A stretch of DNA of 47,257 bases from Pirellulales bacterium. Lineage in GTDB: Bacteria > Planctomycetota > Planctomycetia > Pirellulales > JADZDJ01. Below the pieces are notes generated by a model. The model saw nothing but the letters and a program-made list of their open reading frames with translations, was not told where the DNA came from and searched no databases. Where the stretch lies: NCBI GenBank assembly GCA_035499655.1, contig DATJYL010000215.1, positions 1 to 47,257 on the forward strand, read 5' to 3'. A program made the position numbers and the translations under genes. Shown in pieces: positions 983 to 35,609 of this stretch; position 1 is the first letter of the stretch, and the number at the start of each line of letters is the position of its first letter.

Positions 983-1978
983 TTAGCGAGAGTTAGCGAT
1001 ATCCCAAAGGCCAGCTTGATCGACAAATTCCGGCACTTCGGCCGTTTCCACCCGGTGCAAAGTGCTTTTTAAGGGGTCGAAACTGACAGCACGGCGGCCG
1101 GCTGCCCATTCGCGCCAGACCAACTGCGGAAATATCCACGCATCGCGGAGATAGCGTTTGGCCAAACGACGGGGTTCTCCCAGCAGGCGATGCAGCCATT
1201 CCAGGCCTACGCGCCGCATCCACGCCGGAGCCCGCGGTTTTTCGCCGGCCAGAAAATCAATGGTTGCCCCCACGCACAGCGCCACCGGCGCCGCAATTTG
1301 GCTGCGATGTGCATGAACCCACAACTCCTGCTTGGGCGCACCCAAACCAATAATGAGCACGTCGGGGCGAGCCTGGGCAATGTGTCGAAGAATTGCGGCG
1401 TTTTCGGTCGGATTTTTTTCGAAACCCAGCGGCGGACTATAAGTGCCGACCACCGTCACCGCCGGCCACTGCTGCTCGATATTTTGAGCCGCCCGCTCCG
1501 CAACGCCGGGCGCGGCGCCCAACAGAAACACACGCAGCGGTGAAGGGTCGAGCACGTAGGCGCGGGCTTCGGCATCCACTGTTTCAAACAGTGCCGGCAC
1601 CAAATCGCTGCCGGGCACGCGTTCCGGGATGGGTCGATGCAGCAATTTTGCGGCGGCCAACACGGGAAAGCCATCAGCCAGCACCAGTGAAGCATCGGCA
1701 TAGGCCCGCTGCAATCCGACGTGTTTCTGAAACATTACGGCGTGATCGACGTTGGGCGTCACCACGTAGTGGCAGTTTCCGTCACGATTTTGAACCCAAT
1801 CGAGCAATTGTCCAACAGCATCGGGCATACGGAGGGCATCGAGCTTCATCCCGAATAAATGGACGGTGCTTTTCGTTGTGCGAATGCCGACGGTTTTCAT
1901 TGTTTCGCAACTTGGTAGACTCATCGTTGTTTCTCGGCTTGGCGTTGGTGCATCGTTTTCCACGCTTGATGTTCTCAT
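983..1978 (-). CDS. WecG/TagA/CpsF-family glycosyltransferase
   Basis: This 331-residue protein belongs to the GT26 family, which transfers N-acetylmannosamine or its uronic acid from UDP to a lipid-linked acceptor at the inner membrane face. Family hallmarks are visible: TPNVDH at about 75-80, LADGFPV at about 100-106, GLGAPKQELW at 211-220 and GLEWLHRLLGEPRR at 258-271. The first residues up to about 35 are a poorly conserved extension. Its ATG overlaps the TGA of the upstream GT4 gene by four bases (ATGA), which supports this start and implies translational coupling. The exact donor sugar cannot be read from sequence. Confidence 0.9.
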   Translation of the reverse strand: MRTSSVENDAPTPSRETTMSLPSCETMKTVGIRTTKSTVHLFGMKLDALRMPDAVGQLLDWVQNRDGNCHYVVTPNVDHAVMFQKHVGLQRAYADASLVLADGFPVLAAAKLLHRPIPERVPGSDLVPALFETVDAEARAYVLDPSPLRVFLLGAAPGVAERAAQNIEQQWPAVTVVGTYSPPLGFEKNPTENAAILRHIAQARPDVLIIGLGAPKQELWVHAHRSQIAAPVALCVGATIDFLAGEKPRAPAWMRRVGLEWLHRLLGEPRRLAKRYLRDAWIFPQLVWREWAAGRRAVSFDPLKSTLHRVETAEVPEFVDQAGLWDIANSR

Positions 1979-3213
1979 CGCTTGAGCGCGCTTCGATAGA
2001 TTTCGGCCACACCGGCGGCCATGGCGGTATCGGAAAATCGCTCCGCGTGACTGGCCACGGCGTTGGCTCGCAGCGATTGCCAGTCGTGCTTCCCAGTGAC
2101 AACCGCCGCGATGTTGTTGGCCAATTCCCCGGCGTTGTTCGGTTCTGTCAGCAACCCGTCGTGGCCGTGGCGAATGACATCGGCAATGCCTTCCACGCGG
2201 CTGCCGATAGGGGGCACGCCGGAAGCCATGGCCTCAAGCACAGCCATCGGCATGCCTTCCGGCAAGATGCTGGGCAAAACCAGCAGATCAAGCTCGTCCA
2301 GTTCGCTGTTGATGTTCTGCCGAAAACCGCGCCATTCAACGAGATTGCCAATGCCCAGCTCGCAGGCCAGTTGCAGCGAATGTTCCTGATACTGCGGCGT
2401 TTCAAAGCCGCCAATGACACGCAACTTCACCGGCATCCCCTGGCTGTTCAAAATAGCCAGCGATTCCAGGAGCACTTCTAATCCTTTGCGAGGACGCAAA
2501 AGTGCGACCATGCCCACGGTCCAACTATTTTTCGGTGCGCGACGGTTGGCCAAATTACTGCGTTTGGAGACGCCATTGGGAACAAGATGTACTTGTTCCG
2601 TAGCAACTCTCCAGCGGCGAATGTAATCTGCCGACGATGGCGATACGGCAATGATGGCTGCTACCCGGGTAAGACTTGCCCGTTCACAGTAGGCCGATAG
2701 CCGGGCCAGCCAGCCGCAGCCAACTTCAGTGGCCGTATGGCCATGCACATGATGTACCAGTGGCACGCCGGCCAGCCGCGCCGCAATTTGACCAATGAGC
2801 GCGGTCCGCGGCGTGTGCGTGTGGATCAAGTCGAACCGCTGGGCGCGCACAATTCGGGCCAGCCGCCAGGCCGGCCGCAAATCGAATCGGGAGCGCATCG
2901 GCAGTGAGAAGAGCGGCGTGTTTTGGCAGTGGCGATCGGTGGGAAAACGATCGGGCTTGATGCAGGCAATCGCCACATCGACGCCAAACTGCGGCAATCG
3001 CAGGGCCAACAAGTCTTGCACGCGCTCCGCTCCGGCATAATGTTCGCCATTGACGACGTGCAAAACACGCAGGATATCTGTAGCAGGGGGGGGCGGTGCA
3101 TTGGCGGGGGCGCCATGCAGACATGGGACATTGCCATCAGGCAAATGCTCTGCAAACGGCACCTTGGTCAACGGCGTCTTGGGCAGTTCAAGCAGCGTCG
3201 GGCTCATGGGCAT
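1975..3213 (-). CDS. GT4-family glycosyltransferase
   Basis: This 412-residue protein is a GT-B-fold retaining glycosyltransferase, expected to add a sugar to the growing lipid-linked polysaccharide unit in the cytoplasm. The N-terminal Rossmann half begins near residue 47 (LRVLHVVNGEHYAGAERV). The C-terminal half starts near 231 (WTVGMVALLRPRKGLEVLLE) and carries the EX7E nucleotide-sugar motif at E319/E327 within LPEGMPMAVLEAM. Residues 1-46 are a Pro/Ala-rich extension. An AGGA six bases before the ATG supports the start. The stop overlaps the next gene by four bases. Donor and linkage are unknown. Confidence 0.92.
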   Translation of the reverse strand: MPMSPTLLELPKTPLTKVPFAEHLPDGNVPCLHGAPANAPPPPATDILRVLHVVNGEHYAGAERVQDLLALRLPQFGVDVAIACIKPDRFPTDRHCQNTPLFSLPMRSRFDLRPAWRLARIVRAQRFDLIHTHTPRTALIGQIAARLAGVPLVHHVHGHTATEVGCGWLARLSAYCERASLTRVAAIIAVSPSSADYIRRWRVATEQVHLVPNGVSKRSNLANRRAPKNSWTVGMVALLRPRKGLEVLLESLAILNSQGMPVKLRVIGGFETPQYQEHSLQLACELGIGNLVEWRGFRQNINSELDELDLLVLPSILPEGMPMAVLEAMASGVPPIGSRVEGIADVIRHGHDGLLTEPNNAGELANNIAAVVTGKHDWQSLRANAVASHAERFSDTAMAAGVAEIYRSALKR

Positions 3214-3278: not shown

Positions 3279-4109
3279 TCAATAGGCCCCCTTGCAAGTG
3301 ATAACCTTCAGAGGCGTGCGCACGAGGAGCTTAAAATCGGTCCACAGATTTTGGTGGCGCAGGTACCAGATATCCATTCGCACCCAATCTTCGAAGCCGA
3401 TTTCGCTGCGGCCGCTGACTTGCCAGAGGCAGGTTAAACCAGGCTTCACGGCCAGCCGTCGCCGCTGCCAGGCCTTGTATTTGGCCACTTCCTTGGGGAC
3501 CGGCGGGCGCGGCCCAACCAACGACATTTGCCCCAACAGCACATTGATCAATTGCGGCATTTCGTCGATGCTGGTTTTTCGCAACCAGCGGCCGAGGCGC
3601 GTCACACGGGGATCACAACGGTTTTTGAAAATCGGTCCGTCTTGCTCATTTTGCACTAAATGTTGCAGTTTGTCGGCGTCCAATCGCATGGTGCGAAATT
3701 TGAACATCCAGAAGCGTCGGCCACACTGCCCCACACGCTCCTGCCGGAACAATGGCCGGCCCCGGGTTGTCACGACCAGCACGGCAAAAACGGTTAGCAA
3801 AATCGGCGACAACAGCACAAGCAATGCTAATGAGCCGACAATGTCCAAGGCTCGCTTCGCAGTTTGATATTCCGGCGATAAATTCCCTTCGGCCCAAATC
3901 AGCGGCATTCCGGGAATGTTTGCTTCTACAGCCAGCCGCTGCCGCGATGGCAATTGCCGGGGCACGAATAATCTTGGCCGAGCGGCGGGGATGTGCTGGT
4001 CGGCGGTGTGCGGTGGAGATAAAACCGCCACGGTGCCTGCATCGTCGTTCATGAGGCGCTGAATGGATGGCTTCCATTGGCCGAGCTGCCTACTCATACG
4101 CTTCAACAT
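3279..4109 (-). CDS. Undecaprenyl-phosphate sugar phosphotransferase (initiating transferase)
   Basis: This is a bacterial sugar transferase of the WcaJ/PglC/EpsL type. Such proteins start repeat-unit assembly by moving a sugar-1-phosphate onto undecaprenyl phosphate. The core is complete: one membrane re-entrant/TM stretch (ALDIVGSLALLVLLSPILL), FRQERVGQCGRRFWMFKFRT, the DE pair in SIDEMPQLINVLLGQMSLVG, PRPP, and KPGLTCLWQVSGRS. The ATG at 4107-4109 has AAGGAG seven bases upstream, so I take it over the in-frame start at 4187; this gives 276 residues. It lacks the large multi-TM N-terminal domain of WbaP/WcaJ. The substrate is not predictable. Confidence 0.92.
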   Translation of the reverse strand: MLKRMSRQLGQWKPSIQRLMNDDAGTVAVLSPPHTADQHIPAARPRLFVPRQLPSRQRLAVEANIPGMPLIWAEGNLSPEYQTAKRALDIVGSLALLVLLSPILLTVFAVLVVTTRGRPLFRQERVGQCGRRFWMFKFRTMRLDADKLQHLVQNEQDGPIFKNRCDPRVTRLGRWLRKTSIDEMPQLINVLLGQMSLVGPRPPVPKEVAKYKAWQRRRLAVKPGLTCLWQVSGRSEIGFEDWVRMDIWYLRHQNLWTDFKLLVRTPLKVITCKGAY

Positions 4110-4340
4110 GCTTGCTCCTTGGATGACTGCGTAAGGGGAAGTTTGGGCAATCATGAATCCAGAATTGCGGATTCGGCATGTATCCACTCAAAGGCAAAGA
4201 GCATGCCCAAGGTGCGTTTCAGAAATCCGCTGTCGGTGTAAACGTTGATGTAAAAAGCGGTTGCGGATTGAAGCCGCCTTGAGCTGGCAGCGTTTTAGAT
4301 TGTTCCGAGCCACCTCACTGTTTCCGCCAATCAACGTGCT

Positions 4341-4385: not shown

Positions 4386-5801
4386 TCAAAGCGATTGAGC
4401 CGCCAGCACCGGAACTGGTTTTCTTTGATGTAGCGAAGAATTTTCTTTTTTCGTATTGATTGGGACCGCGTTTGCCGCCAGGCCGGAAACGATCGCGGCG
4501 GCCAGAAACATCAGTAGATTAGCGCCATCCATGATGTTTGTATCGTGGAACAACGCGGTGGGCAAATACGCTGCCACGAGCGCCATAAACATGATGCCGG
4601 ATTGTCTCACTGCGGCCGAAGTGCGGGGGTCGCGATAAATTTTCCAGGCACTGTGAAGCCACAGCAACAGCAAGAGCACAAACAAGCACATGCCCACTAA
4701 CCCGGTTTCCACCAACAGCGCCAAAAACGCATTGTGCTGCACGTAGGGAATCACTTTTTCCAATGGGAGACTGCTGTTGGAACGGTCAGCCAAATAGGGG
4801 AGTTTTTCGCGGTCGTACTGGCCGAAGCCACAACCCCACAACGGCCGATCCAAAAACATTTGATAGGCGACTTCCGCCAGAATGGGCCTGAGCTCGGCCG
4901 ATTCCTCCGACGCGGCGGCATCTAAATTCACATCGCGTTTGATGTTCCACATGCTGTCCCATTTGGCGGCGAATAGAGTGATTGCTCCCATCGCGCTCAG
5001 ACACAAAAACAAACGCCGCCACGATCGGGGAACGCTAAAACCTATGAATACGGCGAGACCCAATCCGCCGCCGATCCAGGAACAGCGGGTGAGTGTGGCG
5101 TATACCGCTGCCAGGGTTAACGCCGTAAATGCTAATAAGATTAATTGACCAAGGCGGCCCAGCACCGACCAAAAAGTTAGCGCTGCCAGCAGGCCGGCCA
5201 TCAGATAAATCCCCATTTCGGCCGGATTTAAAAACGGCCCACGCGCGCGACCGAAAAACTCCGTTGTCGGTGAGCAGATGTACGATGGAAACACAGCCCA
5301 CCACTGGCCCGTGCTTTCGGCCAAAGCGGTGAATGTTAAATAGACGCCGAACAGGGCCAGTGCGCCCCAAGCGCGGCGGACCGTACGATCGTCTAACGGC
5401 GATTGCCGCACGATCCAATAAATCATGGCTGGCATCAGCCAGTAAAAAATCCAGTGGGCCGCCGGCGTGGAAGTGGCAGAACCTTTCCAATTGTGAGTAA
5501 AGGTGCTGATGCCCAACATAACCAGCAAAGCCAACAACACCCAGTCGGCGCGTCCGGTCGGTTTTGGATCATTGAATCCCCAGCGGCGATGCACGATGTA
5601 GGCGATCGCCATTAATCCGATCAGCCCACGATCCGCGCTCAGAGGGAGTCCGCCGTCGGCATGCCAAAACTGATAACCGAAGCAAGCGCTCACAATCATC
5701 ACGGCTAAGCAACCACCCACTAGTGAGCCGCGCAGCACAAACCAGCCAATCCAAACCAGGGCGGCACAAGCGGCAACGATTGTTAAAAAATCCATCGGCA
5801 C
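4386..5801 (-). CDS. O-antigen ligase/Wzy-type polymerase, multi-pass membrane protein
   Basis: This 471-residue, highly hydrophobic protein has about a dozen predicted membrane spans and a large periplasmic loop at about residues 290-355. It fits the WaaL/Wzy superfamily (O-antigen ligase domain), which joins undecaprenyl-linked repeat units or moves them to an acceptor. Family-like motifs are the Arg-containing FFGRARGPFLNPAEMG before a span and the loop motif PLWGCGFGQY followed by YVQHNAFLALLVETG. The GTG at 5799-5801 has AGGA five bases upstream and is preferred over the ATG two codons later. The gene sits 42 bases after the Wzz-like gene. Ligase versus polymerase cannot be settled from sequence; the locus argues for polymerase. 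Confidence 0.88.
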   Translation of the reverse strand: MPMDFLTIVAACAALVWIGWFVLRGSLVGGCLAVMIVSACFGYQFWHADGGLPLSADRGLIGLMAIAYIVHRRWGFNDPKPTGRADWVLLALLVMLGISTFTHNWKGSATSTPAAHWIFYWLMPAMIYWIVRQSPLDDRTVRRAWGALALFGVYLTFTALAESTGQWWAVFPSYICSPTTEFFGRARGPFLNPAEMGIYLMAGLLAALTFWSVLGRLGQLILLAFTALTLAAVYATLTRCSWIGGGLGLAVFIGFSVPRSWRRLFLCLSAMGAITLFAAKWDSMWNIKRDVNLDAAASEESAELRPILAEVAYQMFLDRPLWGCGFGQYDREKLPYLADRSNSSLPLEKVIPYVQHNAFLALLVETGLVGMCLFVLLLLLWLHSAWKIYRDPRTSAAVRQSGIMFMALVAAYLPTALFHDTNIMDGANLLMFLAAAIVSGLAANAVPINTKKENSSLHQRKPVPVLAAQSL

Positions 5802-5843: not shown

Positions 5844-7397
5844 TTAGCGAACTGGCGTCAACTTTCTCAAAGCCTGCTTTAAGGATAGATCGCGGCCACC
5901 GATTTCATGCTCCGACGTGAGTTCTCGATGAGAGGCAAACTTACGAACAGGATGTCCATTGCCCTCAACAGGCGAAAACTCTCCACAGGCCAATGGCGGA
6001 ATCTCGGCGCCTACCAGAGGCTGCGATTGGGTCGCTTGTCGCACGGCTTCCGATTGTGTCGGATTTACCGTGAGAAACACGATGCCCAAGCCCAAGAGCA
6101 AACCGCCCAATATGCCGCCCAATACGATGGTCGTCTTCCCAGGCCCAACGGGCGAATCTCCGGCGACCGGGGCGTCGATAGCGGCAATCAAACTGGCTGT
6201 CAGAGCAGCCGCTTGGCTGGCTCGTGATTCGGCCAACTCTTGCTCGGCGGTCTTCAGAATGTCGGCCCGCTGATTACGCTCCGCCACCAGATTGGCGTAT
6301 TCGGCCCGCATGCCCGCTAAGGTGCTCAATCGCTGCCGAGCGTCGTTCAACTGAGATTTCAAAAGATCAGCCCGAGCTTGGGAAAGTCGCAAATCGGATT
6401 GCACGCCGACGATGGCCGAATCGATTTCGGCCCGGACTTTGTCGGCAATTTCCTGTTCGGCAATTTTGGCCGCGACAACCGACGGATGGTCGGCCGTCAG
6501 GTTGCCCAGCAGTTGCGAGGTGCGGAGTTGGGCATCGACCAAGCCGTCTTTCAAACGGCGCAGTTCGGGCTGGGCCTCCAACAAGCGATTCGGGGCCGAA
6601 GCCAGCGACCGGCCATCGGTTTTTGAGACTTGCAGCAGAGAGAGCAATTCTTGATTGCCGTCGATGGCCTGTTGGGCTTGCCGCAATTCTTGATCCATTT
6701 CGTTGATGGAACGGCGCAATGGGCTGTCGCCACCGCCCAGATCGTTGAGCATGCGCAATTCGCCTAGATCGGCCCCGACGCGGCTTTCGATTGCCGTTAA
6801 TTCTTCGGTGGTGCTATTCAAATCGGTCTTGGCCAAATCGACGGTTTTGCTTAATTCGGCGATCAGACTTTGCGCTTTTTGATTGCGCAGCTCCTGCGAT
6901 CGCAACTGTAGTTGCCGACAAATTGCGGCGGCCAAATCGACGGCTCGCTGGCGATTTTCCGCTTCGACATTCAAATAAAACACTTCGGTCTTTCCGAATT
7001 CGGCTCCTTTGGGCGGCACCAACTTCACGTGGCCTTGCAGCGCGGCGACTGCCGCATCGGTCGGCCAGGACGGGACATTTTTTGATTTTGAATCGGGACC
7101 CACTTCGGCCAGCGCGGCGCTTAACACCGAACGGCTGTGGGCCAATTCCAGGATGGTTTCCTGCGTGGTTTTCATGTCGTCGGGCTGCTGAAATTTTCCG
7201 GGACGTGCATTGGCGCCCATGGCTTCGTCGCGGGCCATCAACGCTTGCGAAGCTTCCCACGAGACCGGGCGCAACACGGCGTACACCATCGCTAACAGCG
7301 GAACCGCCACCAAGGGTGCAATCCAGCGCTTCGGATGTTCGCGCAAAATGCGAAACACTTCGATGGGGGTGATAACTGGCTTGTTGGTCGGCGACAT
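5844..7397 (-). CDS. Wzz/GumC-like polysaccharide chain-length determinant protein
   Basis: This 517-residue protein has one N-terminal span (about 24-40, IAPLVAVPLLAMVYAVL), a long periplasmic part with extensive coiled coil (about 165-400), and a C-terminal span near 425-445 (GILGGLLLGLGIVFLTV). That is the polysaccharide co-polymerase layout. ELAHSRSVLSAAL and FYLNVEAENRQRAVDLA match the Wzz domain. No fused BY-kinase domain is present: there is no Walker A after the last span, and the tail of about 70 residues is low-complexity. The frame is open to 7565, but the ATG at 7395-7397 has AGGA nine bases upstream and starts just before the domain. It is the first gene of the left arm. Confidence 0.88.
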   Translation of the reverse strand: MSPTNKPVITPIEVFRILREHPKRWIAPLVAVPLLAMVYAVLRPVSWEASQALMARDEAMGANARPGKFQQPDDMKTTQETILELAHSRSVLSAALAEVGPDSKSKNVPSWPTDAAVAALQGHVKLVPPKGAEFGKTEVFYLNVEAENRQRAVDLAAAICRQLQLRSQELRNQKAQSLIAELSKTVDLAKTDLNSTTEELTAIESRVGADLGELRMLNDLGGGDSPLRRSINEMDQELRQAQQAIDGNQELLSLLQVSKTDGRSLASAPNRLLEAQPELRRLKDGLVDAQLRTSQLLGNLTADHPSVVAAKIAEQEIADKVRAEIDSAIVGVQSDLRLSQARADLLKSQLNDARQRLSTLAGMRAEYANLVAERNQRADILKTAEQELAESRASQAAALTASLIAAIDAPVAGDSPVGPGKTTIVLGGILGGLLLGLGIVFLTVNPTQSEAVRQATQSQPLVGAEIPPLACGEFSPVEGNGHPVRKFASHRELTSEHEIGGRDLSLKQALRKLTPVR

Positions 7398-7923
7398 GGG
7401 AAGAGTCCTGTGCGGGCTGCTTGGCGAGGGATCGATGAAGCCAACAGGCAAAACACCTGCGGCGATGACTGAGGTAAGCAAAGCCAATGCCGACCATCGT
7501 GGAGTGTGTATTTCTGCGGTCGTAAAGAGTCGCAACTCGCGTTTCATCATCCCTTTGCGACGCAACTGGTCGGGTGCTGCGGTGGGTAAAGCGGCGTTGA
7601 AGCAAATCGGGCATGTTGATCAATGGCAACGATTTGTTTCCGCCACGCCACATACCGCCAAATTGCAACACCCGTCAATCGGCATGACCGCCGATGATTT
7701 TTGTCCACGCGCCGGCAAAACCATTTGCCTTAAACGCTTGGGCGCGGAATGTTTCAGTAATTGACCCGTTCGACAGCAGACCGGCACGGCCACTATGGGC
7801 GTACCGCGGCGCACGATATGCAATGCAGTTTGCCGACGCGGTTCCAGCCGTTCGGCTAATCCCCCGCGCACAAGCAATCTCGGCCGAGGCCCGGATCAGG
7901 AATTATTAACCGGACCGCAGTCC
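7398..7923. promoter_or_regulatory. Long divergent intergenic region of the polysaccharide locus
   Basis: These 526 bases separate the divergent Wzz-like and acetyltransferase genes, so both operon promoters should lie here. I could not pick a convincing -35/-10 pair on either strand. Open frames cross it in both directions (to 7565 leftward, from 7795 rightward) but look like N-terminal over-extensions: they lack family residues and the better-placed starts are at 7397 and 7924. Confidence 0.4.
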
Positions 7924-9108
7924 ATGCACATCAACCGCCATTTCGATTTCGCTTCACTCTTGCCGCTGAAGGAGCGTTGGAACGAGCTTTCCGACGGCGT
8001 GCCTTTTCGAAGCTGGGAATGGGTAGAAGCCTGGTGGCGGCATTACGCCTGCCATAACGATGGCCGCCCCAAGCGCGATCACGAATTGTTTGTGCTGACC
8101 GTGTGGGACGAAAACAATCGTTTGGTAGCCATTGCGCCGTGGTACCGGCAGGTTTCGCGCAGTGGTGCGCGCGTAATCCGCTTTTTGGGCGACGGCGAGG
8201 TGTGCAGCGATTATCTCAGCCTGTTGTGTGACCGCGGCGAAGAACAGGCTGTGGCCGCCGCTTTGGCCGACTGGCTGACCATTCAAAATCAGAGTTCCGC
8301 GATTGCCGTTAGCCGTTGGGACCGCATGGAATTTATCGGCGTTTCAGACGACGATTTGCCGGTCAGGCTGCTGCTGGCTCAATTGCAGGAAGAGGGGAGC
8401 ACCGTCCATCGCACCCCCGGGCTGAACACGTGGCGGATCACACTTCCCGGCACTTGGGAAGAATTTCTGATGGTGCTTTCCAAGCCTCACCGCAATCGCT
8501 TGCGGCGCGCCGACAAGAACTATTTTCAATCAGGCCTGGTGCAAATTCGTCGAGCGCAAACCGAGGATGACGTTGCTACGTGGTTCGACATCTTGGTCGA
8601 TCTGCACCAGCGGAATTGGCAGCGACGGGGCATGCCCGGCTGCTTCGCCTCAGAACAGTTTTTAGCGCTGCACGGCGAGTTGTCCCGGCGTTTTTTTCAC
8701 GATGGGCGAGCCACGCTGACTTGGTTGGAAATGGAAGGCAAACCGTTGGCGGTTGAATATCGGCTACACGGCACGGACATCATGTATGCCTACCAATGCG
8801 GCATCGATCCCGAACGATTGAAAGTGCAACCGGGCGAGCTGGCAAACATGGCCTCCATTCGAAATGCGATTGAACGCGGCCAACTTGCGTACGATTTTCT
8901 CCGCGGCGACGAACCGTACAAAGCCCATTGGCGTGCGGCGCCGCAGCCGATGTTTACGATCCGTGTGATTCCGCGGCGCGCTTCTTCCCGGCTGCGGCAT
9001 CAGGCGTGGCTGGCTGGACAGAATGTGAAGCAGTGGATCAAAAGCGGCCTGGAACTGACGCGACTGCGAAAATCGGCATCTAGTGCACACCCACAGCAAT
9101 CGCCGTAA
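7924..9108 (+). CDS. CelD/BcsL-type GNAT acetyltransferase (FemAB-like)
   Basis: This 394-residue protein resembles the Acetyltransf_6 (CelD/BcsL) family, a double-GNAT fold related to FemAB and found in many exopolysaccharide loci. Visible features are FRSWEWVEAWWRHYA near the N-terminus, a WYRQ strand, KPHRNRLRRADKNYFQSG mid-protein, and the C-terminal block GKPLAVEYRLHGTDIMYAYQ then YDFLRGDEPYKAHWR. The last is typical of FemAB-related proteins acting in exopolysaccharide export systems. The frame is open from 7795; the ATG at 7924 fits the domain edge, although no strong ribosome site is seen. Predicted role: acylation or amino-acylation of the polymer or its precursor, inferred from family and context. 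Confidence 0.82.
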   Translation: MHINRHFDFASLLPLKERWNELSDGVPFRSWEWVEAWWRHYACHNDGRPKRDHELFVLTVWDENNRLVAIAPWYRQVSRSGARVIRFLGDGEVCSDYLSLLCDRGEEQAVAAALADWLTIQNQSSAIAVSRWDRMEFIGVSDDDLPVRLLLAQLQEEGSTVHRTPGLNTWRITLPGTWEEFLMVLSKPHRNRLRRADKNYFQSGLVQIRRAQTEDDVATWFDILVDLHQRNWQRRGMPGCFASEQFLALHGELSRRFFHDGRATLTWLEMEGKPLAVEYRLHGTDIMYAYQCGIDPERLKVQPGELANMASIRNAIERGQLAYDFLRGDEPYKAHWRAAPQPMFTIRVIPRRASSRLRHQAWLAGQNVKQWIKSGLELTRLRKSASSAHPQQSP

Positions 9109-9118
9109 GGAAACGACC

Positions 9119-9997
9119 ATGAACCTTCGGCAAACTTTTCACCCGTTGCTTCTGGGTGGTTATTGCAACGCCACGTTGCCTTACCGGCGTTGGCTTCGCG
9201 CTCGGCTTGCGGCACAAGGGCGGGCGCCAATTCTCGTGCTGTTTTATCACCGCATTGCCGACGATGGGAGCCGACATTGGACGCACTCCAACCGTCTGTT
9301 CCAAAAGCAAATTTTCTGGCTCGAGCGACATTGCCAACTGATTTCGCTGGAAGAGGCCCAGCGCCGAATACGCTCCGGTTCCAACGACCGTCTGGCCGCC
9401 TGCATCACTTTCGACGATGGCTACTCGGAAAACTGTGAACAAGCCATTCCACTGTTAATTCGTCATGGAATCCCTTGCACGTACTTTGTCAGTTCGCGGC
9501 ATGTGTTGGATGGGGTCAGGTTCGCACATGATGTAGCCAACAACGGTCGGGGAATTCCGAATACGATTGAGCAACTACGCTGGATGGCCAAAAGCGGCGT
9601 CGAAATTGGCGCCCACACGCGTACGCATGCTGATTTGGGCCGCGTCACCGACGAGAGCCAACTGCTTGACGAAGTGATCGCTGCCGGCGAGGAGCTTGAA
9701 GCCGCCGTTGACCAACCAATGCGCTATTTCGCGTTTCCATATGGATTGCCGCAAAACCTCAACGCACAGGCAGTCCAGCTCCTGCAGGAGCATGGTTACG
9801 AAGCCTTTTGTTCGGCTTACGGCGACTACAACTTTCCCGGCGACGATTCGTTCCACATTCGCCGCTTTCATGCGGACGACATGCTGCGGCTGAAAAACTG
9901 GGCCACCATCGACCCGCGTCACCTTAAGCCCACCTTTACGTTCGATTATCGGTTATCGGCACCTGAGTTGCCGTGCAGCGAGATGGCCGAAGCCTGA
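9119..9997 (+). CDS. Polysaccharide deacetylase (NodB/CE4 family)
   Basis: This 292-residue protein is a metal-dependent N- or O-deacetylase. The NodB motifs are clear: TFDDGY at 97-102 (catalytic Asp and metal Asp), HTRTH at 166-170 (metal His pair) and FAFPYG near 210. No signal peptide is evident, so it may act on cytoplasmic or membrane-associated glycan. The ATG at 9119 follows AAGGAAA, which overlaps the stop of the acetyltransferase gene, so the two are coupled. A slightly earlier in-frame start at 9083 overlaps that gene and is less likely. With its neighbour it probably adjusts acyl decoration of the polymer. Confidence 0.9.
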   Translation: MNLRQTFHPLLLGGYCNATLPYRRWLRARLAAQGRAPILVLFYHRIADDGSRHWTHSNRLFQKQIFWLERHCQLISLEEAQRRIRSGSNDRLAACITFDDGYSENCEQAIPLLIRHGIPCTYFVSSRHVLDGVRFAHDVANNGRGIPNTIEQLRWMAKSGVEIGAHTRTHADLGRVTDESQLLDEVIAAGEELEAAVDQPMRYFAFPYGLPQNLNAQAVQLLQEHGYEAFCSAYGDYNFPGDDSFHIRRFHADDMLRLKNWATIDPRHLKPTFTFDYRLSAPELPCSEMAEA

Positions 9998-10083
9998 TTT
10001 GAAATTACTGCTTTTTCCGCGGGATAGAAAGCGGCGGAAAGAAAAGCAACTGGTCGAACAACTTGTACCCGGTTGAGGTTCAA

Positions 10084-12966
10084 ATGTCGGCGGTGCTCGA
10101 TATAACCCATGACAAATTGCCCAATCCGCCGACTGCGGCAGCGCCACCGAGCCAGCCAGCGGTGAATGACAATGGTAAATCTGTTGTTCCCCGAGGCGGA
10201 TTGCGCACCGATAGTTTAGCCGAAAGCGTGGTGGTGCTGCTTACCCTGACGGCGGTGCAGCGCTTTATCGGATTTGTCCGCGGCGTTTTGGTCTGCCGCT
10301 GGCTCAGCCCGCAAGACCTGGGCCAATGGGACATGGCTTTTGGGTTCCTAACATTGGGGGCACCCCTAGCCGTTTTGGGCTTGCCTGGCAGCTTCGGTCG
10401 TTACGTCGAATACTTTCGACAGCGCGGCCAATTGAATCGGCTGTTAAAGCGGACTGCGATTGTTTGCACCGCGCTGACCGCTGCGGTGGTAAGTGCGATC
10501 TGCATTGCACGACCGTGGATTTCGACCATCGTGTTCGGCCGATCCGACGAAAAGCAATTGGTGCTTGCGCTGGCCATTTGCCTGGCAATCGTGATCGCCT
10601 TCAATTACCTCACCGAGCTGCTGACCGCCCTGCGCATGGCGCGCGTCACGGCGGTGGTGCAGTTTTTTAACAGCATCATGTTTGCCGGTTTCGGCATATT
10701 TTTATTGTTTTCCTGGCGAACTCAGGCCGTGTCTTTGGTGGCCGCTTATGGCATTGCTTGTGCGCTGCAGGTCGCCTGGATGATTTGGTTTTTGCGCCGT
10801 CAGTGGCGTCTTGCTCCGCCGGAATCCGCCACAATTGTCGATGCCGACAGCGGCAAATTTTGGTCGAAACTATTGTCGTTTGCCGCCTGGGTATGGGTGG
10901 GCAATCTGATGTACAATTTGTTCGATGTGGTGGATCGTTACCTCATCATTCATACGTCCACCGTCGCAGATCCGCTAGCGCTGGTTGGTTCCTACCACAG
11001 CTCACGAATTGTTCCCTTGCTACTGGTGACCATCGCCGGTTTGCTAGGCACGATGATTCTGCCTCACCTCAGCCACGATTGGGAATTGGGTCACCGGCAA
11101 CAGGTCTCCGCCCGGATGAACCTGATTCTGAAGCTGATCGGCCTGTTGCTGTTTGTCGGATCGATTGCCATTTTGCTGGCCGGCCCGTTCATGTTCAACG
11201 TGGCGTTCAATGGCAAATACGCGGCGGGCAGAGAAGTTCTGCCGTGGACATTAACGTTCAGCGTGTGGTTCGGCTTGATCAGCATCGCCCAATTGTATTT
11301 GTGGTGCGCGGAGCGCGCACGGTTGAGTTGCCTGGCACTGGGAATCGGCCTGCTTGCCAACATTGTCATTAATTTGATTTTGATTCCGCATTTTGGACTG
11401 CACGGCGCCGTATGGGCCAGGGCGGCCTCCAACTTATTAACCTTGGCGTTGATTTACCGCTTTAGCGCTTGGCTGGGAATGAAGATTGAACGCTCGCTGT
11501 TGATTGTATCGCTGTTGCCGCTGGCGCTTAGTTTTGGACCGTGGGTGGCAATATTCACGTTGATCGCCGTGATTGGTGCAGTCGGCGCTACCAATCAAAT
11601 TCTCTCCCAGGCGGAAAAACAACGCCTGCTTGTAGTGTGGAACGAGTACATCAGCCGCATGCGCGCCTTTTGGAAAAGCAACTCCGCCAATAAGTTTGGT
11701 CCTCGTTTGGCGGCCGCTGATGACTCGCTGACTTTGGCTACGAGAGTTGATGCATACACTCCCGCCGATTCGGGTTACAGCCTTGGGAACAGCGATGTGT
11801 CTCATCGCGAAGTTGAATCGCCGCCGCCGCGACCGTTGCGCGTGACGTTTTACAGCACGTCCTTGCACGTCGGAGGTGCGGAAACATTACTATTCAACTT
11901 GATTCAACGACTCGATCGATCTCGCTTTGCACCCGAGTTGTGCTGTTTGAAAGAGTTGGGCGAATTGGGGGAAAAATTGTCGCGGGAAATTCCTGTGTAT
12001 GCCGACTTGTTGCGGCACAAGTTCGATGTGCGCGTGTTGAGACGGCTTACAAGGCTGTTGCGCGAGCGGCAAATCGATGCCGTCGTCACGGTGGGGGCGG
12101 GAGATAAAATGTTTTGGGGACGGCTGGCGGCCCGCCGCGCCGGCGTGCCGGTGATCGTATCCGCGTTGCATTCTACCGGTTGGCCCGACGGTATCACCTG
12201 GCTGAATCGACGACTCACTCTGCTGACCGATGCGTTTGTGGCCGTCGCCAAGAACCATGCCCAACATCTCATAGAACGAGAGCACTTACCGGCCGATCGG
12301 GTATGCCCCATTCCGAATGGCGTCGACACAAGCATATTCTATCCGCGATCGCCCGAAGCCGATTTGCGAAAGCAATTGAAGATTCCCGCGGCTGCGCCGG
12401 TGGTAGGCATTGTGGCCGTGCTGCGGCCGGAAAAAAATCACGAGCTGTTTTTGCGGGTCGCCGCGGGTGTGCGGCAGCAATTGCCTGAGGCTCATTTCCT
12501 AATCATCGGCGATGGCCCGCGCCGTGCGGAATTGGAGTCGCTGGCCGAAAAACTTGGATTGGGCAATCACGCCCATTTTCTCGGCAAGCGTGCGGACGTG
12601 CCGCAGTTGCTGAATTTATTGGACGTGTTTGTGCTCACCTCGCACAATGAGGCCAATCCGGTTTCGATTCTCGAAGCGCTCGCCACGGCAAAGCCTGTCG
12701 TGGCCACCAAAGTCGGCTCCGTGCCGGAAACCGTGATCGACGGCGTGACCGGGTTCCTTGTGCCGCCGGGTGGCGAATTGACGATGACCGACCGCTTGAC
12801 GGAACTTTTGCTTGATCCTGCCAAAGCCCAACGGTTGGGGGCTGCTGGCCGCCGCCATGTGGTGGAAAATTGGTCGCTGGACCGGATGGTCGACGGCTAC
12901 GAGGAGCTGCTCGAACGGCTGTATTGGCAGAAGCGGGACGCCGTTTCAGATGGTAATTGGCGCTAA
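10084..12966 (+). CDS. Fusion of Wzx-like flippase and GT4 glycosyltransferase
   Basis: This single uninterrupted 960-residue frame has two parts. Residues about 45-495 form a multi-span membrane domain of the polysaccharide-flippase/MOP type, with about 12-14 hydrophobic segments and a VVLLTLTAVQRFIGFVRGVL opening. After a polar linker (about 500-580), residues about 583-950 are a complete GT4 transferase: VGGAETLLFNL, a PNGVD turn, VVGIVAVLRPEKNHELF, IIGDGPRR, and EX7E in EANPVSILEALATAKPVV. GAGG sits five bases before the chosen ATG; a TTG seven codons upstream is less likely. Inferred role: adding a sugar and exporting the lipid-linked unit. No frameshift or stop separates the halves. Confidence 0.88.
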   Translation: MSAVLDITHDKLPNPPTAAAPPSQPAVNDNGKSVVPRGGLRTDSLAESVVVLLTLTAVQRFIGFVRGVLVCRWLSPQDLGQWDMAFGFLTLGAPLAVLGLPGSFGRYVEYFRQRGQLNRLLKRTAIVCTALTAAVVSAICIARPWISTIVFGRSDEKQLVLALAICLAIVIAFNYLTELLTALRMARVTAVVQFFNSIMFAGFGIFLLFSWRTQAVSLVAAYGIACALQVAWMIWFLRRQWRLAPPESATIVDADSGKFWSKLLSFAAWVWVGNLMYNLFDVVDRYLIIHTSTVADPLALVGSYHSSRIVPLLLVTIAGLLGTMILPHLSHDWELGHRQQVSARMNLILKLIGLLLFVGSIAILLAGPFMFNVAFNGKYAAGREVLPWTLTFSVWFGLISIAQLYLWCAERARLSCLALGIGLLANIVINLILIPHFGLHGAVWARAASNLLTLALIYRFSAWLGMKIERSLLIVSLLPLALSFGPWVAIFTLIAVIGAVGATNQILSQAEKQRLLVVWNEYISRMRAFWKSNSANKFGPRLAAADDSLTLATRVDAYTPADSGYSLGNSDVSHREVESPPPRPLRVTFYSTSLHVGGAETLLFNLIQRLDRSRFAPELCCLKELGELGEKLSREIPVYADLLRHKFDVRVLRRLTRLLRERQIDAVVTVGAGDKMFWGRLAARRAGVPVIVSALHSTGWPDGITWLNRRLTLLTDAFVAVAKNHAQHLIEREHLPADRVCPIPNGVDTSIFYPRSPEADLRKQLKIPAAAPVVGIVAVLRPEKNHELFLRVAAGVRQQLPEAHFLIIGDGPRRAELESLAEKLGLGNHAHFLGKRADVPQLLNLLDVFVLTSHNEANPVSILEALATAKPVVATKVGSVPETVIDGVTGFLVPPGGELTMTDRLTELLLDPAKAQRLGAAGRRHVVENWSLDRMVDGYEELLERLYWQKRDAVSDGNWR

Positions 12967-13591: not shown

Positions 13592-13600
13592 ATTATATCA
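13592..13600 (-). promoter_or_regulatory. Candidate extended -10 promoter for the two small genes
   Basis: On the minus strand TGATATAAT matches an extended -10 (TGnTATAAT), ending 34 bases before the ATG at 13557. It overlaps the last codons and stop of the nuclease gene. The -35 region is poor, which extended -10 promoters tolerate. Confidence 0.35.
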
Positions 13601-14309
13601 CTCGGTCGACCGAAAACGACATTTTGTAGCGTGCCAAAAAAACTCCAGGAACACGAGAAACAGCAACTCGAAGATCGTCTGTAATTTCGTTGGCGATGAT
13701 CGCGCCTCGGCATGGCCCATTGCCGAGATGTTTATCAACCCAACCCATGTAATACAATAGCTGCCCAAGTGTTTTGTTGCGCCCTCTAGAAAGCTTCAAT
13801 TCAATCACAACATATTTTTTGTCACGATCAACCGCAAGCAAATCTATGCGTCCGTCATCAACGTTAAATTCTCTGCCGCTTTCATCACCATTCACATACA
13901 GTTGCAGACCGGCTTCGACTCGATCAAGATTCTTGGCTAGGAAATCTCGAAGGTGAGCCTCTAGCGCAAATTCTAACGCATCTTGCTCCTCTTCTTGCTT
14001 TTCTGAATTGGACGAAGCATTACCTGATAAATATGCAACGTAGTCTCGCCATATTTTAGTGCTTTGTCGTATTTTTGATTCACCTTGCGGAGACCGTCCA
14101 AGTGGCCACTTCTCATCAATAAATTGTGGCAGGAGTCCTCGTTTCTCGAATAACTCGATCATCCTGCCACGCCGAACAGACGAGTCATAACTTCGATCCC
14201 ATTCGATTTCCATTTCTCTGATGTCTTCGGCATCTTGTGACATACCGTGTTGTTCCGCGAAGTCATATGCCCTTAGCAATGGAAACACCTTCGGTTCCTG
14301 ATCTTCCAT
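13593..14309 (-). CDS. PD-(D/E)XK nuclease-like protein (NucS/DUF91 type)
   Basis: This is a 238-residue protein. The C-terminal half carries a restriction-endonuclease core: a helix with Glu (FALEAHLRDFL, about 114-124), GRIDLLAVD with the metal Asp at about 156, the strand YVVIELK with Glu170 and Lys172, and Gln183-Tyr187 in LGQLLYYMGWV. That order matches the NucS/EndoMS nuclease domain. The N-terminal 90 residues do not match the NucS DNA-binding domain as far as I can tell. AGGGG eight bases before the ATG supports this start over the in-frame one at 14372. AT-rich sequence, unlike its neighbours, suggests acquisition by transfer. Confidence 0.75.
   Translation of the reverse strand: MEDQEPKVFPLLRAYDFAEQHGMSQDAEDIREMEIEWDRSYDSSVRRGRMIELFEKRGLLPQFIDEKWPLGRSPQGESKIRQSTKIWRDYVAYLSGNASSNSEKQEEEQDALEFALEAHLRDFLAKNLDRVEAGLQLYVNGDESGREFNVDDGRIDLLAVDRDKKYVVIELKLSRGRNKTLGQLLYYMGWVDKHLGNGPCRGAIIANEITDDLRVAVSRVPGVFLARYKMSFSVDRVI
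13602..13613. promoter_or_regulatory. Perfect 12-bp palindrome (possible operator)
   Basis: TCGGTCGACCGA is its own reverse complement. It lies one base upstream of the extended -10 on the minus strand, where a repressor would block the promoter. It also encodes the last residues of the nuclease, so chance cannot be excluded. Confidence 0.3.
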
Positions 14310-14668
14310 AAGATTTACCCCTTGATGGTTTGTTTCCCAGTGAGTGTGTCTGTTGTGCTCCCAATATAACACCCAACATCAAGACTTCAATTTTGCCACT
14401 TTCTCGATCATCTGGCGGTGCTGAGACCCCATAAAAGGCCTTGCAAACCGCAGATTTTGCCACGAATCTTCTTCATTTGCTGTGTGACCCTCTACTGTCT
14501 GCCGGCAACGTACTGAACGGTCGCAATTCGCGGCCATAAGGATGAACCGCACCGGGGCGGCGGCTGTTAACCAGGGATGGAACCGAATCATGACCACAGC
14601 AGCAATTCTTTTCTTTGTGTACCGGGCGGCGATGAGGGCTTTCCGCACGGCCCCTAAAGCGGGATAAT
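14310..14668. other. Intergenic region between nuclease and acyltransferase genes
   Basis: These 359 bases separate two divergent genes. The nuclease promoter lies at its left end. A minus-strand open frame (14379-14792) crosses it but overlaps the acyltransferase start and looks like no protein family, so I do not call it. Composition changes from AT-rich to GC-rich across this gap, consistent with one edge of the transferred patch. Confidence 0.5.
14363..14390 (-). promoter_or_regulatory. Candidate sigma70-type promoter of the nuclease cassette
   Basis: On the minus strand TTGAAG (14390-14385) and TATATT (14368-14363) are separated by 16 bases, close to the vegetative consensus. The predicted start of transcription would be about 45 bases before the nuclease ATG at 14309. 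Confidence 0.5.
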
Positions 14669-15370
14669 ATGCAGCTTTCCGCCACGCTTCCTCGTAATTC
14701 CCGACAGGCGGGTCTGCGGCGCTATCGTTGGGCCGTGCCCCCGTCCGATCGGAATCCCATTTGCTGGATGACCGGCACCTTCCTGGCTGCACTCGCCAAG
14801 TTTTTAAGCGGCGCCAGCGCCCGTTGGGTTGACTGCCAGCCCGACACCTGCCAGCGCGTTTACTTTGCCAACCACACTAGCCATTTGGACGCGTTGGTCG
14901 TGTGGTCGTCGTTGCCCGTGGAGTTGCGAAATATCACCCGGCCCGTGGCCGCCAAGGATTATTGGAACAACGGCTCGCTACGCCGGTATTTCGCCACGAA
15001 AGTGTTCGACGCGCTGCTCATCGACCGGACCGAAATCAAAGTCCATAACAGCCCTATCGACATCATGATACGCGAAATGGGGGACACCAAATCTTTGATT
15101 GTTTTTCCCGAAGGGGGCCGCAGCATCGACGGCGAAATCGGCGAGTTCAAAAGCGGGTTGTACTATCTTGGCAAAAAACGTCCCGACTTAGAGCTGGTGC
15201 CGGTGTACATCGATAACATGAACCGCGTGCTGCCGCGGGGCGAAGTGTTGCCCGTCCCGCTGCTCAGTTGCATCACTTTTGGGCCACCGATTTGGCTGGA
15301 TAAAGGGGAACCCAAAAACGACTTTCTGCGGCGTGCCAGGGAGGCTGTCCGGCGCTTGAAAGATGTTTGA
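14669..15370 (+). CDS. 1-acyl-glycerol-3-phosphate acyltransferase (PlsC-like)
   Basis: This 233-residue lysophospholipid acyltransferase should convert lysophosphatidate to phosphatidate at the inner membrane. The HX4D catalytic motif is NHTSHLD, and the glycerol-phosphate binding block is FPEGGRSIDGEIGEFKSG. A later strand LELVPVYIDNMNRVLP also fits the family. One weak hydrophobic segment lies near residues 35-50. The neighbour 152 bases downstream is a CDP-diglyceride synthase, the next enzyme in the pathway, which strengthens the call. No strong ribosome site precedes the ATG. Confidence 0.88.
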   Translation: MQLSATLPRNSRQAGLRRYRWAVPPSDRNPICWMTGTFLAALAKFLSGASARWVDCQPDTCQRVYFANHTSHLDALVVWSSLPVELRNITRPVAAKDYWNNGSLRRYFATKVFDALLIDRTEIKVHNSPIDIMIREMGDTKSLIVFPEGGRSIDGEIGEFKSGLYYLGKKRPDLELVPVYIDNMNRVLPRGEVLPVPLLSCITFGPPIWLDKGEPKNDFLRRAREAVRRLKDV

Positions 15371-15522: not shown

Positions 15523-16482
15523 TTGAACATACCCGCAATGGAAGATTGGAGAACATTATCTCTGGTCGGTGGTGTGTTGGTCTTGCTGACGGTGGCCACC
15601 ATTGTCGGGCAGTTTCTGAAACGGCACCCCGATACAGGACTGAATGCCGCGGCCGTACGGTCTTTTAATCTCCGGCTGCGCGCCTGGTGGATGATGTGCG
15701 CCCTGTTGGCCACGGCCCGGTTTATCGGCAAGGGTTGGACGGTGGCCATGTTCGGCTTTATTTCGTTCGTGGCCCTGCGTGAGTTTATCACCATTACACC
15801 GACGCGGCAGGGAGATCATCGGGCGCTGTTTTGGGCCTTCGTTCTGTTCACGCCGCTGCAATATGTTTTGGTGGGCCTTAACGCCTATCAACTTTTCAAC
15901 GTGCTGATTCCGGTTTACGCGTTTTTATTTGTGCCCGCACGAATCGCCCTTTCGGGAGATTACAAACGTTACTTGGAGCGCGTGGCTAAAATTCAGACCG
16001 GATTGATAATTTGCGTTTATTGCCTGAGTTTTGCGCCGGCACTGTTGTACTTAAACATTAAAGAATATGCGGGCTCCAACTACCGCCTGCTATTCTTTTT
16101 TATTTTGATGGTGCAGATGGGAGACGCCCTACAATACATTTGGGGCAAACTCATAGGGCGACGGGTGATTGTGCCCAGCATCAGTTCCAACCGCACATGG
16201 GAAGGATTTTTGGGCGGAGTGGCCAGCAACACGTTGTTGGGCGCGGCATTGTATTGGGCCACACCGTTTCAACCGTGGCAAGCGGCCGGCATGACGCTGA
16301 TTATCAGCATCCTAGGATTCTGCGGGGGCCTGACGATGTCAGCCATTAAGCGCGATCGCGGAGTGAAAGATTACGGCACCCTGGTCGAAGGGCACGGCGG
16401 CGTGTTAGACCGGATCGACTCGATTTGCTTTGCCGCGCCGGTGTTTTACCACCTCACCTGGTCGATTTTTCCGCCGGGCTAA
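15523..16482 (+). CDS. cdsA: Phosphatidate cytidylyltransferase (CDP-diglyceride synthase)
   Basis: This 319-residue integral membrane enzyme makes CDP-diacylglycerol from phosphatidate and CTP. About eight to nine hydrophobic spans are visible. The C-terminal family signature is intact: SAIKRDRGVKDYG followed by HGGVLDRIDS, with the conserved K-D and D-R-x-D metal and CTP residues. The frame opens with TTG at 15523; the ATG at 15538 is an equally possible start. It follows the PlsC-like gene, giving a small phospholipid pair. Its end converges with the metallopeptidase gene, 12 bases away, with no obvious terminator between. Confidence 0.9.
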   Translation: MNIPAMEDWRTLSLVGGVLVLLTVATIVGQFLKRHPDTGLNAAAVRSFNLRLRAWWMMCALLATARFIGKGWTVAMFGFISFVALREFITITPTRQGDHRALFWAFVLFTPLQYVLVGLNAYQLFNVLIPVYAFLFVPARIALSGDYKRYLERVAKIQTGLIICVYCLSFAPALLYLNIKEYAGSNYRLLFFFILMVQMGDALQYIWGKLIGRRVIVPSISSNRTWEGFLGGVASNTLLGAALYWATPFQPWQAAGMTLIISILGFCGGLTMSAIKRDRGVKDYGTLVEGHGGVLDRIDSICFAAPVFYHLTWSIFPPG

Positions 16483-32819: not shown

Positions 32820-33185
32820 CCGGAGAGTTTGGAACCGGCATCGTCTTCATCGGCCGCTGCGAGATTGCTCCAACTCGCGATAGATTTGCCGGTTAGGACA
32901 ATTTCTCTCCACGCCGGCCATTTCTCGCTAACGCATATTTTCGGAAAAATTGTGCGTTTATGTACGCCTGTGCTGTGTCGCTGACACTATTACTCTTAGC
33001 GGGCGTAATTCAACGGCTTGGCGTCCGTTATCGGGCGAGCCAAGCTTCTGCTGAGCATTATGTGCCGGCATTTGGCTCGGCAGCAGCCTCATCCTCCCAA
33101 GTTTTGAAACAGCCTTTTTAAAAGTCAGATGTCGGTAGGCTCACCCGCTGGAAGCCGTTTTTCACATTTTTCTTGGAGTTCGATC
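32820..33185. other. Intergenic region upstream of the large stalk protein
   Basis: About 366 bases. It holds an inverted repeat GCTTGGC / GCCAAGC (33016-33022 / 33039-33045, 16-base loop) and a possible 53-codon frame (32960-33121) that starts with a hydrophobic run. No convincing promoter hexamers were picked. Confidence 0.35.
32960..33121 (+). CDS. Possible small membrane peptide
   Basis: This 53-residue frame starts MYACAVSLTLLLLAGVIQRL, i.e. a hydrophobic N-terminus of about 14 residues, then a small-residue-rich tail. No ribosome site is visible and the inverted repeat at 33016-33045 lies inside it. It could be a leader peptide of the stalk-protein gene or chance. Confidence 0.2.
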   Translation: MYACAVSLTLLLLAGVIQRLGVRYRASQASAEHYVPAFGSAAASSSQVLKQPF

Positions 33186-35609
33186 ATGCGTTTAACGTTG
33201 CGAACCATGCTGGCATACCTCGACGGTATTCTGGAACCGGCCGACCGAGATGAGATTGCCCGGAAAATTGACGAAAGCGAATTTGCCCGCCAACTGGTGC
33301 AACGCCTCCGCGATTGCGCGGGCAATCCCCAACTAGCAGCTCCCAAAGTTTCCGCCAAAAACACAGGCTTGGATCCCAACCTCGTTGCCGAGTACTTGGA
33401 TAACACCCTGGCAGGCGAGCGCGTGCCGGAATTCGAAAAAGCATGCTTGGAATCCGACATCTATCTGGCCGAAGTGGCAGCTTGCCATCAAATTCTTACG
33501 ATGGTTTTGGCCCAGCCTGCGGATATTGATCTGGAAATGAAGCAACTGATGTACGGGGTGATTCATCAAGCAGCGCAACAGGCGTCAAAGTCGAGTGTAG
33601 CGGACCGAGCGGCGGACGAACGCGGCCCAGCGCTACCTGATGATATCTGGGTGAAGCCGCAGCGGCGCAAACCGGAAATTCCTGATTATCTGCGCGAAGG
33701 ACCCAAGCGCTTCAGGTGGAAGCCGGTGGTAGCCGCCGCACTGTTGTTGTTAATTCTGGTGGTTGCCATCACCATGGTTTTGGGACCGTTGGACCGCACT
33801 CATCCGATCGCGCGCTTATTAGGTTTCGGTCCAGCGGCGGAAAACCAGGCGAATCCAGCCGAGGCGGGGAATGAGCACGGCAGCAATACCGAGACTCCAA
33901 ATACGACGGATCACGCATCGACTTCTGGCACATCGAAGTCGGAACCACGCGATCAGGGCAGCACTACCAAACCTCCAGATGCCCCTTCTACCAATCCGAC
34001 ACCTCTCGCTGGAAGCGCCAATGCGTCCGACAACTCCGGGACCGAAAAAACTGCGTCCGACTCTTCGCAGACTGATACCAAAACCGCAGCGCAACCCTCC
34101 AATCCGGCAAGTGACACAACACCCGCAGCCACGGTCACGGCAAACACCGCAGCGTCTGCTGCCGGCACAGTGACACCGCCGGCTGCCGCTGCAAATCCTC
34201 TTCCTTCTGCCGGGCTGCCTTCTACGGTACTTCCTTCTACGGGGCCATCTACCACGGCAAATCCGCTCGCGCCGGAACCGGACGCGTCAACAGTCGGTTC
34301 AAACCTTAAACCTCCGCCCACCCCAGAACCACCCGCCGGCAACGCTGTTGTTCCACCACAATCTGCGGTTGCCGGACACGAAGCGCCTGGCAATGCCCAG
34401 GAGACGACGACGCACGGTCTCATGTTGCCGCCACAAACCCGCGATGCCACCGTGCCCGTCGACAACACGCCGTTGGGTCGGTTTCTGCCGAGCAAGGACG
34501 TGGTCCTGTTGAAGTTTGATGCCGCTGCAAATCAATGGTCCCGGGTCCCCTCAGGGGCCTCGGTCACCGCCGGCGAGCAATTGCTGGTATTGCCCACATA
34601 TCGTCCGACTATCACCCTTTCTACTGGGATTACACTCGAGATTCCCGATGAAACTTTATTACAACTGCAACCGGCCAATACCCAAGGCGTGCCTACGGTG
34701 AAATTGGTTTATGGACGGCTAGTCGCGATCACCGCAGGCAAACCTGGACCCCAGCTAAGTTTGGATGCCGGTGGAATGAAAGGGGTGATCTCCTTTGTCG
34801 ATGCCGAGGCCATGTTGGGAGTGGAGGTGCGTCGATATTACTCCGCCGGATCAAATCCGGAAGTTGAAGAACCGCATGTGGCCGCCGATTTATATGCTGC
34901 CCGCGGTCATTTGGAATGGACGGCCGCCGATGGCACTGTTACCGCTCTGGAAGCGCCCCAGCGATGGGTGTTGTCGGCCGATCCGACAGAGGCCGCTGCT
35001 GGACCCACGGCCGCGCCAAACATGCCGAAATGGATCGAACCCGAACAGCTCCGGTCGTTCGATGAACAGGCATCGGAATACTTGACGCAGTCGCTATCGG
35101 ACGATAAACCGCTGCTCGTGGCCTTGGGGGAAATGGTCGAACATCGCAAGGCCGAATACAAGTCGTTGGCCGCACAGTCCCTAGCATTGCTCGACGAGTT
35201 TGAACCGCTGGTGGCGACATTCAACGATTCCGAGCAACGCCCGATGTGGAGTGTCGACATAGCCAGTGTTAAGGCGGCGATAGCGCGTGGACCGACCACG
35301 GCCATTAAAGTACATGAGGCTTTTGTGAAACAGCGCGGCGATGATTTGGGCAAAGATCTTTACCGGATGTTCTTGGGATATACCAAGGAACAACTGCAAA
35401 ATGGCGAGGCAGCCAAGTTGGTTGAATTTTTGGACCACGATAATCTCGATTGCCGGGTACTGGCGTTTGCCAACTTGCAGGAAATCACGAACAAAACGCT
35501 TCTGTACCGGCCCGATGCACCGGCGGCCAGCCGAGCCCAAGCCTTACGCCGATGGCAAGAAGAACTTCACAACGGCGCCATTGTTCCTCGCGACAATCCG
35601 CAGAAATAA
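33186..35609 (+). CDS. Large anti-sigma-like membrane protein with Pro/Thr/Ser-rich stalk
   Basis: This is an 807-residue protein. The N-terminal 160 residues are helical and cytoplasmic-like: MRLTLRTMLAYLDGILEPAD, then LVAEYLDNTLAGERVPEFEK and CLESDIYLAEVAACHQIL. They resemble two tandem anti-sigma zinc-finger-like units without clear zinc ligands. One span lies at about 178-200 (VVAAALLLLILVVAITMVLG), followed by a roughly 210-residue stalk rich in Pro, Thr, Ser and Ala (about 210-420). A globular C-terminal part of about 380 residues then shows beta strands and helices. GGAG eight bases before the ATG supports the start. Likely a membrane sensor or regulator; no sigma gene is adjacent. Confidence 0.72.
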   Translation: MRLTLRTMLAYLDGILEPADRDEIARKIDESEFARQLVQRLRDCAGNPQLAAPKVSAKNTGLDPNLVAEYLDNTLAGERVPEFEKACLESDIYLAEVAACHQILTMVLAQPADIDLEMKQLMYGVIHQAAQQASKSSVADRAADERGPALPDDIWVKPQRRKPEIPDYLREGPKRFRWKPVVAAALLLLILVVAITMVLGPLDRTHPIARLLGFGPAAENQANPAEAGNEHGSNTETPNTTDHASTSGTSKSEPRDQGSTTKPPDAPSTNPTPLAGSANASDNSGTEKTASDSSQTDTKTAAQPSNPASDTTPAATVTANTAASAAGTVTPPAAAANPLPSAGLPSTVLPSTGPSTTANPLAPEPDASTVGSNLKPPPTPEPPAGNAVVPPQSAVAGHEAPGNAQETTTHGLMLPPQTRDATVPVDNTPLGRFLPSKDVVLLKFDAAANQWSRVPSGASVTAGEQLLVLPTYRPTITLSTGITLEIPDETLLQLQPANTQGVPTVKLVYGRLVAITAGKPGPQLSLDAGGMKGVISFVDAEAMLGVEVRRYYSAGSNPEVEEPHVAADLYAARGHLEWTAADGTVTALEAPQRWVLSADPTEAAAGPTAAPNMPKWIEPEQLRSFDEQASEYLTQSLSDDKPLLVALGEMVEHRKAEYKSLAAQSLALLDEFEPLVATFNDSEQRPMWSVDIASVKAAIARGPTTAIKVHEAFVKQRGDDLGKDLYRMFLGYTKEQLQNGEAAKLVEFLDHDNLDCRVLAFANLQEITNKTLLYRPDAPAASRAQALRRWQEELHNGAIVPRDNPQK

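Follow-up and report, generated by a model that had tools for sequence, protein, structure and literature searches.

Gene content of the locus

The window (the whole 47,257-nucleotide stretch of Pirellulales DNA analysed here, contig DATJYL010000215.1) carries a polysaccharide gene cluster of two divergent arms, and in its right arm one gene encodes both a Wzx-like flippase and a GT4 glycosyltransferase (GT) (Table 1). A reverse-strand gene at this position was rejected, the reverse frame checked being full of stops. In the wzx neighbourhood, Bac_transf and Wzy_C scored above cut-off and Wzz/GNVR matched weakly, and the gene content points to a Wzx/Wzy-type exopolysaccharide locus with a predicted polymer product. 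Affiliation with an XrtA/exosortase cluster was rejected because the GT scores 203.8 bits against the curated cut-off of 409.05 bits for TIGR03088, the XrtA/PEP-CTERM glycosyltransferase family, and because the exosortase of this genome lies on other contigs.

Across relatives, the right arm follows the order GNAT, deacetylase, wzx, GT4, acyltransferase and CdsA, and the divergent left arm holds a WecG-type GT, Wzy_C and a Wzz-like gene. The window keeps this common order, and its left arm additionally contains a second GT4 and a sugar phosphotransferase. Of 94 loci longer than 5 kb, 84 contained the polysaccharide deacetylase. In the window, a nuclease gene stands between the fusion and the acyltransferase; it was absent from that slot in all other loci compared, the congener's included, and looks like an insertion into a conserved operon. 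Many Pirellulaceae loci contain the deacetylase and the GT without a recognised wzx in the fetched stretch and, therefore, the GT can work without an adjoining flippase. Elsewhere in the window, an 826-aa frame (33129-35609, + strand) has no Pfam or NCBIfam match.

Table 1 Features of the window and of two further flippase fusions (L162 and L163) in the phylum.
Feature	Position	Strand	Basis or remark
WecG/TagA/CpsF glycosyltransferase	983..1978	-	PF03808
Second GT4 glycosyltransferase	1975..3213	-	PF00534
Polyprenyl-phosphate sugar phosphotransferase, would initiate the repeat unit	3279..4187	-	PF02397
Wzy_C polymerase/ligase	4386..5801	-	PF04932
Wzz/GNVR chain-length protein, conserved neighbour	5844..7565	-	weak PF13807/PF02706 below cut-off; conserved position
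GNAT/FemAB-like acyltransferase, conserved neighbour	7795..9108	+	PF13480
Polysaccharide deacetylase, conserved upstream gene	9083..9997	+	PF01522
GAGG, Shine-Dalgarno-like	10075..10078	+	5 nt ahead of ATG at 10084; read from sequence
wzx-GT4 fusion gene	10084..12966	+	960 aa, frame open for 960 codons
Wzx/MOP flippase domain, residues 45-502	10216..11589	+	PF01943; AF2 helices; WzxE 9g9p match
Soluble tail helix of flippase, residues 509-536	11608..11691	+	AF2 model and split relatives
Disordered polar linker, residues 537-583	11692..11832	+	pLDDT <50 over 537-576; congener comparison
GT4 glycosyltransferase domain, GT-B fold, residues 584-955	11833..12948	+	PF13439, PF00534; BshA/HepE matches
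EX7E motif EANPVSILE, residues 856-864	12649..12675	+	alignment of relatives
NucS-C-like nuclease gene	13593-14372	-	PF01939
PlsC-type acyltransferase, conserved downstream neighbour	14669..15370	+	PF01553
CdsA-type cytidylyltransferase, conserved downstream neighbour	15523..16482	+	PF01148
Flippase-GT2 fusion, G437, another genus	L162:2109-4490	+	793 aa; PF00535 E 1e-15
Flippase with C-terminal hexapeptide-type (left-handed beta helix) transferase-like domain, G398	L163:910-3156	-	748 aa; PF00132 weak, below cut-off

Two domains and a linker in one chain

The sequence-only reading had proposed that one uninterrupted frame encodes both proteins, and the Pfam profiles bear this out. The flippase half matched Polysacc_synt (residues 46-304, E 7e-13) and MurJ (119-498, E 5e-07), and the GT half matched Glyco_transf_4 (596-750, E 2e-20) and Glycos_transf_1 (760-924, E 5e-40), all four exceeding their curated cut-offs (e.g., 49.1 bits for PF01943 vs a gathering score of 28.2). 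In an AlphaFold2 model built from 66 relatives (mean pLDDT 88.4, pTM 0.62), residues 45-502 form a bundle of helices and residues 509-536 a soluble helix; residues 537-583 are disordered, and residues 584-955 adopt the GT-B fold. The modest pTM is in keeping with two confidently modelled domains that have no fixed relative position. In structure comparison, flippase residues 48-466 matched the lipid III flippase WzxE (9g9p; Z 34.2, 2.8 A, 399 residues aligned), and the GT domain matched BshA (6n1x, Z 41.8) and HepE (4xsp, Z 40.7), its matches to BshA, HepE and PglA spanning Z 38-42. Domain search and model thus agree on the flippase and GT4 identities first suggested for the two halves.

By its profile, its WzxE/MurJ-like fold and its pathway neighbours, the N-terminal half belongs with the Wzx repeat-unit flippases of the MOP superfamily and is predicted to translocate repeat units. 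WzxE, however, is a stand-alone flippase, whereas the window's carries extra C-terminal helices leading into the fused GT4. The C-terminal half has the GT4 profiles, the GT-B fold and a complete EX7E motif, as previously read from the letters, with each of its glutamates (E856 and E864) kept in 97% of aligned relatives; sugar transfer is accordingly a prediction from sequence and model. It shares fold, motif and 20-25% identity with the retaining GT4 enzymes HepE, BshA and PglA (8dqd), which are separate soluble or peripheral proteins, unlike the fused GT4 of the window.

The linker had been described as polar and about 80 residues long. This length holds for the span of ~81 residues from the end of the final membrane helix (~502) to the start of the GT (584), but the disordered part comprises only ~47 of them, with pLDDT mostly at 30-50 across residues 537-583. 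The Wzx proteins of split relatives stop shortly past the position equivalent to the tail helix. Between the window and its congener (G001), residues 530-583 are equal in length without any indel and only 26% identical, and dN/dS (NG86) is ~0.9 for the linker, estimated over as few as 54 codons, vs 0.11 for the flippase and 0.08 for the GT. A drifting spacer with its frame kept is what a protein tether would predict, although this pattern alone is weak evidence.

A continuous frame could still yield two products if an internal start or proteolysis freed the GT. In the window, codon 572 is an in-frame GTG preceded by GGGA, and one fused genome (G197, at L042/L148) retains an ATG at the GT start site of split relatives. 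However, the window has no in-frame ATG from codon 526 to the GT, the congener's linker has no such GTG among its in-frame start codons at that place, and the linker at L013 lacks methionine altogether, making separate products improbable.

Fused and split relatives in the order

We show that the join is genuine. The domain E-values rule out chance, as does a fused homologue, 69% identical to the window's protein, in the independently assembled genome of a congener (G001). An assembly or base-calling error that merged two genes might be suspected given the 244 contigs of the window's assembly, but the congener, from a separate assembly, is fused as well, its linker aligning without gaps, and another fused copy (G019) sits on a single-contig 4.8 Mb chromosome, leaving such an error with hardly any probability.

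Relatives with both halves do not always carry them split, as the fusion occurs in six genomes (G000, G001, G006, G019, G117 and G197). In the order, which includes named Pirellulales such as Lacipirellula, Blastopirellula and Bythopirellula, wzx and GT are usually adjacent, co-directional, separate genes, split at 69 of the 74 loci with both halves (duplicates included; 59 distinct). Both halves were found in 72 of 160 genomes and lie within 600 nt of each other in 52, two of which are fused (G117 and G197). A further 22 genomes have the adjacent pair, four of them fused (G000, G001, G006 and G019), so that, of ~74 genomes in which the pair is adjacent, 6 carry similar fusions. G002, a genome of the same family as the window's, has split halves. 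The split pairs of Lacipirellula limnantheis (L061) and Blastopirellula marina (L105) are orthologous to the two halves and occupy the same operon slot, but a stop divides them into two genes, adjacent or overlapping, instead of one frame. In some genomes the halves are far apart, even in single-contig ones (G163, G195, G203 and G215), and linkage is therefore not obligatory.

Among the fused genomes, the congeners G019 and G117 have linkers that differ greatly in length and sequence, both in frame; in G117, a long Ser/Thr/Val tandem-repeat linker, unlike that of G019, joins flippase and GT (L151:308-3601, + strand). G006 has a separate split wzx/GT pair besides its fused copy (L155 and G006:C191), and the two G197 loci (L148 and L042) appear to be one locus since they share the junction sequence and the length of the contig. 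Eight other candidates (G205, G149, G155, G102, G122, G104, G087 and G038) were rejected for a stop between the halves in each, and two more (G432, with a 1044-aa open frame, and G445) for the lack of an evident fused partner in the translations read. A contig labelled Candidatus Nealsonbacteria (L059) carries a planctomycete-like wzx with 45% identity to the window's and is possibly mis-binned.

When 42 concatenated pairs were placed in a tree, the six fused genomes fell on four branches. Four changes of the fused state are required, and good branch support makes every one of them unavoidable; the same number came out of a 59-row tree. Such counts do not separate gain from loss, but repeated fusion is the simpler reading because a fused ancestor would require many separate splits. 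Judged from these trees, the fusion probably arose repeatedly and convergently, with at least four state changes; on the sequence comparison, it is a non-obligatory form that this conserved gene pair has taken repeatedly. Each origin may have involved the loss of a stop between two adjacent co-directional genes acting on the same lipid-linked unit, and the repeated origin suggests that both proteins act on the same intermediate.

Possible roles of the tether

In Wzx/Wzy-type pathways, the repeat unit is assembled on undecaprenyl-PP on the cytosolic side of the membrane; Wzx then flips it, and Wzy polymerises the units outside. We propose, with a probability of roughly one half, that the fusion is a bifunctional inner-membrane protein of this pathway whose tethered GT4 adds a late sugar at the mouth of the flippase. 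The N-terminal half would act as the Wzx flippase, and its cytosolic C-terminal helix would carry a flexible tether that keeps the retaining-type GT4 in the cytosol. From there it may add a late sugar to the undecaprenyl-PP-linked unit beside the inward-facing mouth and hand finished units over locally, which could make the flipping of a newly completed unit more likely. Here, we infer that the acceptor is the unit that is flipped, that the sugar is late or last and that tethering matters. The coupling of sugar addition to flipping, which the sequence-only reading raised as a possibility, would operate through the tether, and its suggestion that the sugar is the last one is a guess.

Wzx flipping efficiency can depend strongly on the terminal residues of the repeat unit (PMC6436433), although the same study argues that Wzx can function without being part of a complex, a point against the tether reading. 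The tether reading is further weakened because most relatives use separate genes, some of them unlinked. A proven case of synthase and flippase in one chain is MprF, which handles aminoacyl phospholipids (PMC8131360). In MprF a single polypeptide makes its lipid-linked substrate and flips it, which is an analogy only: the families are unrelated and the substrate is another, and Polysacc_synt/MurJ and the GT families were the only Pfam matches, with no MprF-type domains, so that membership was rejected.

The main rival to the tether mechanism is that adjacent co-directional genes, transcribed together, lost the intervening stop codon by a neutral change, the tether having no consequence beyond a 1:1 stoichiometry. 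This rival stays strong because many relatives (e.g., L011, L012, L023 and L039-L041) are one stop codon away from fusion, with both genes in the same frame; the nearly free drift of the linker and the small share of fused genomes also fit it. Against it, two genera have each kept the fusion in frame while their species diverged widely, the fusion has originated on four branches, and other kinds of flippase-enzyme fusion exist in the phylum. We consider neutral fusion quite plausible, if somewhat short of an even chance. The coexistence of fused and split orthologues in close relatives provides a clean natural experiment for comparing the two, one that bears on the question of how cells see to it that only complete lipid-linked units are flipped.

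Beyond the order, a survey restricted to this phylum gave 69 Polysacc_synt matches in 59 genomes, and two further long frames among them are fusions (G437 and G398). Flippase-enzyme fusions therefore recur in the phylum, and no described Wzx-GT fusion came up among the open-access papers listed in literature searches. Flippases with a fused finishing enzyme (GT4, GT2 or hexapeptide-type) might make up a recurrent class whose flipping is gated by the finishing step, as a check that the unit is complete, a tentative extension that we regard as rather unlikely. In both further fusions, as in the window's protein, a Polysacc_synt flippase is followed at its C-terminus by a cytosolic enzyme domain, but the enzyme families differ from GT4 and the flippases are distant from the window's.
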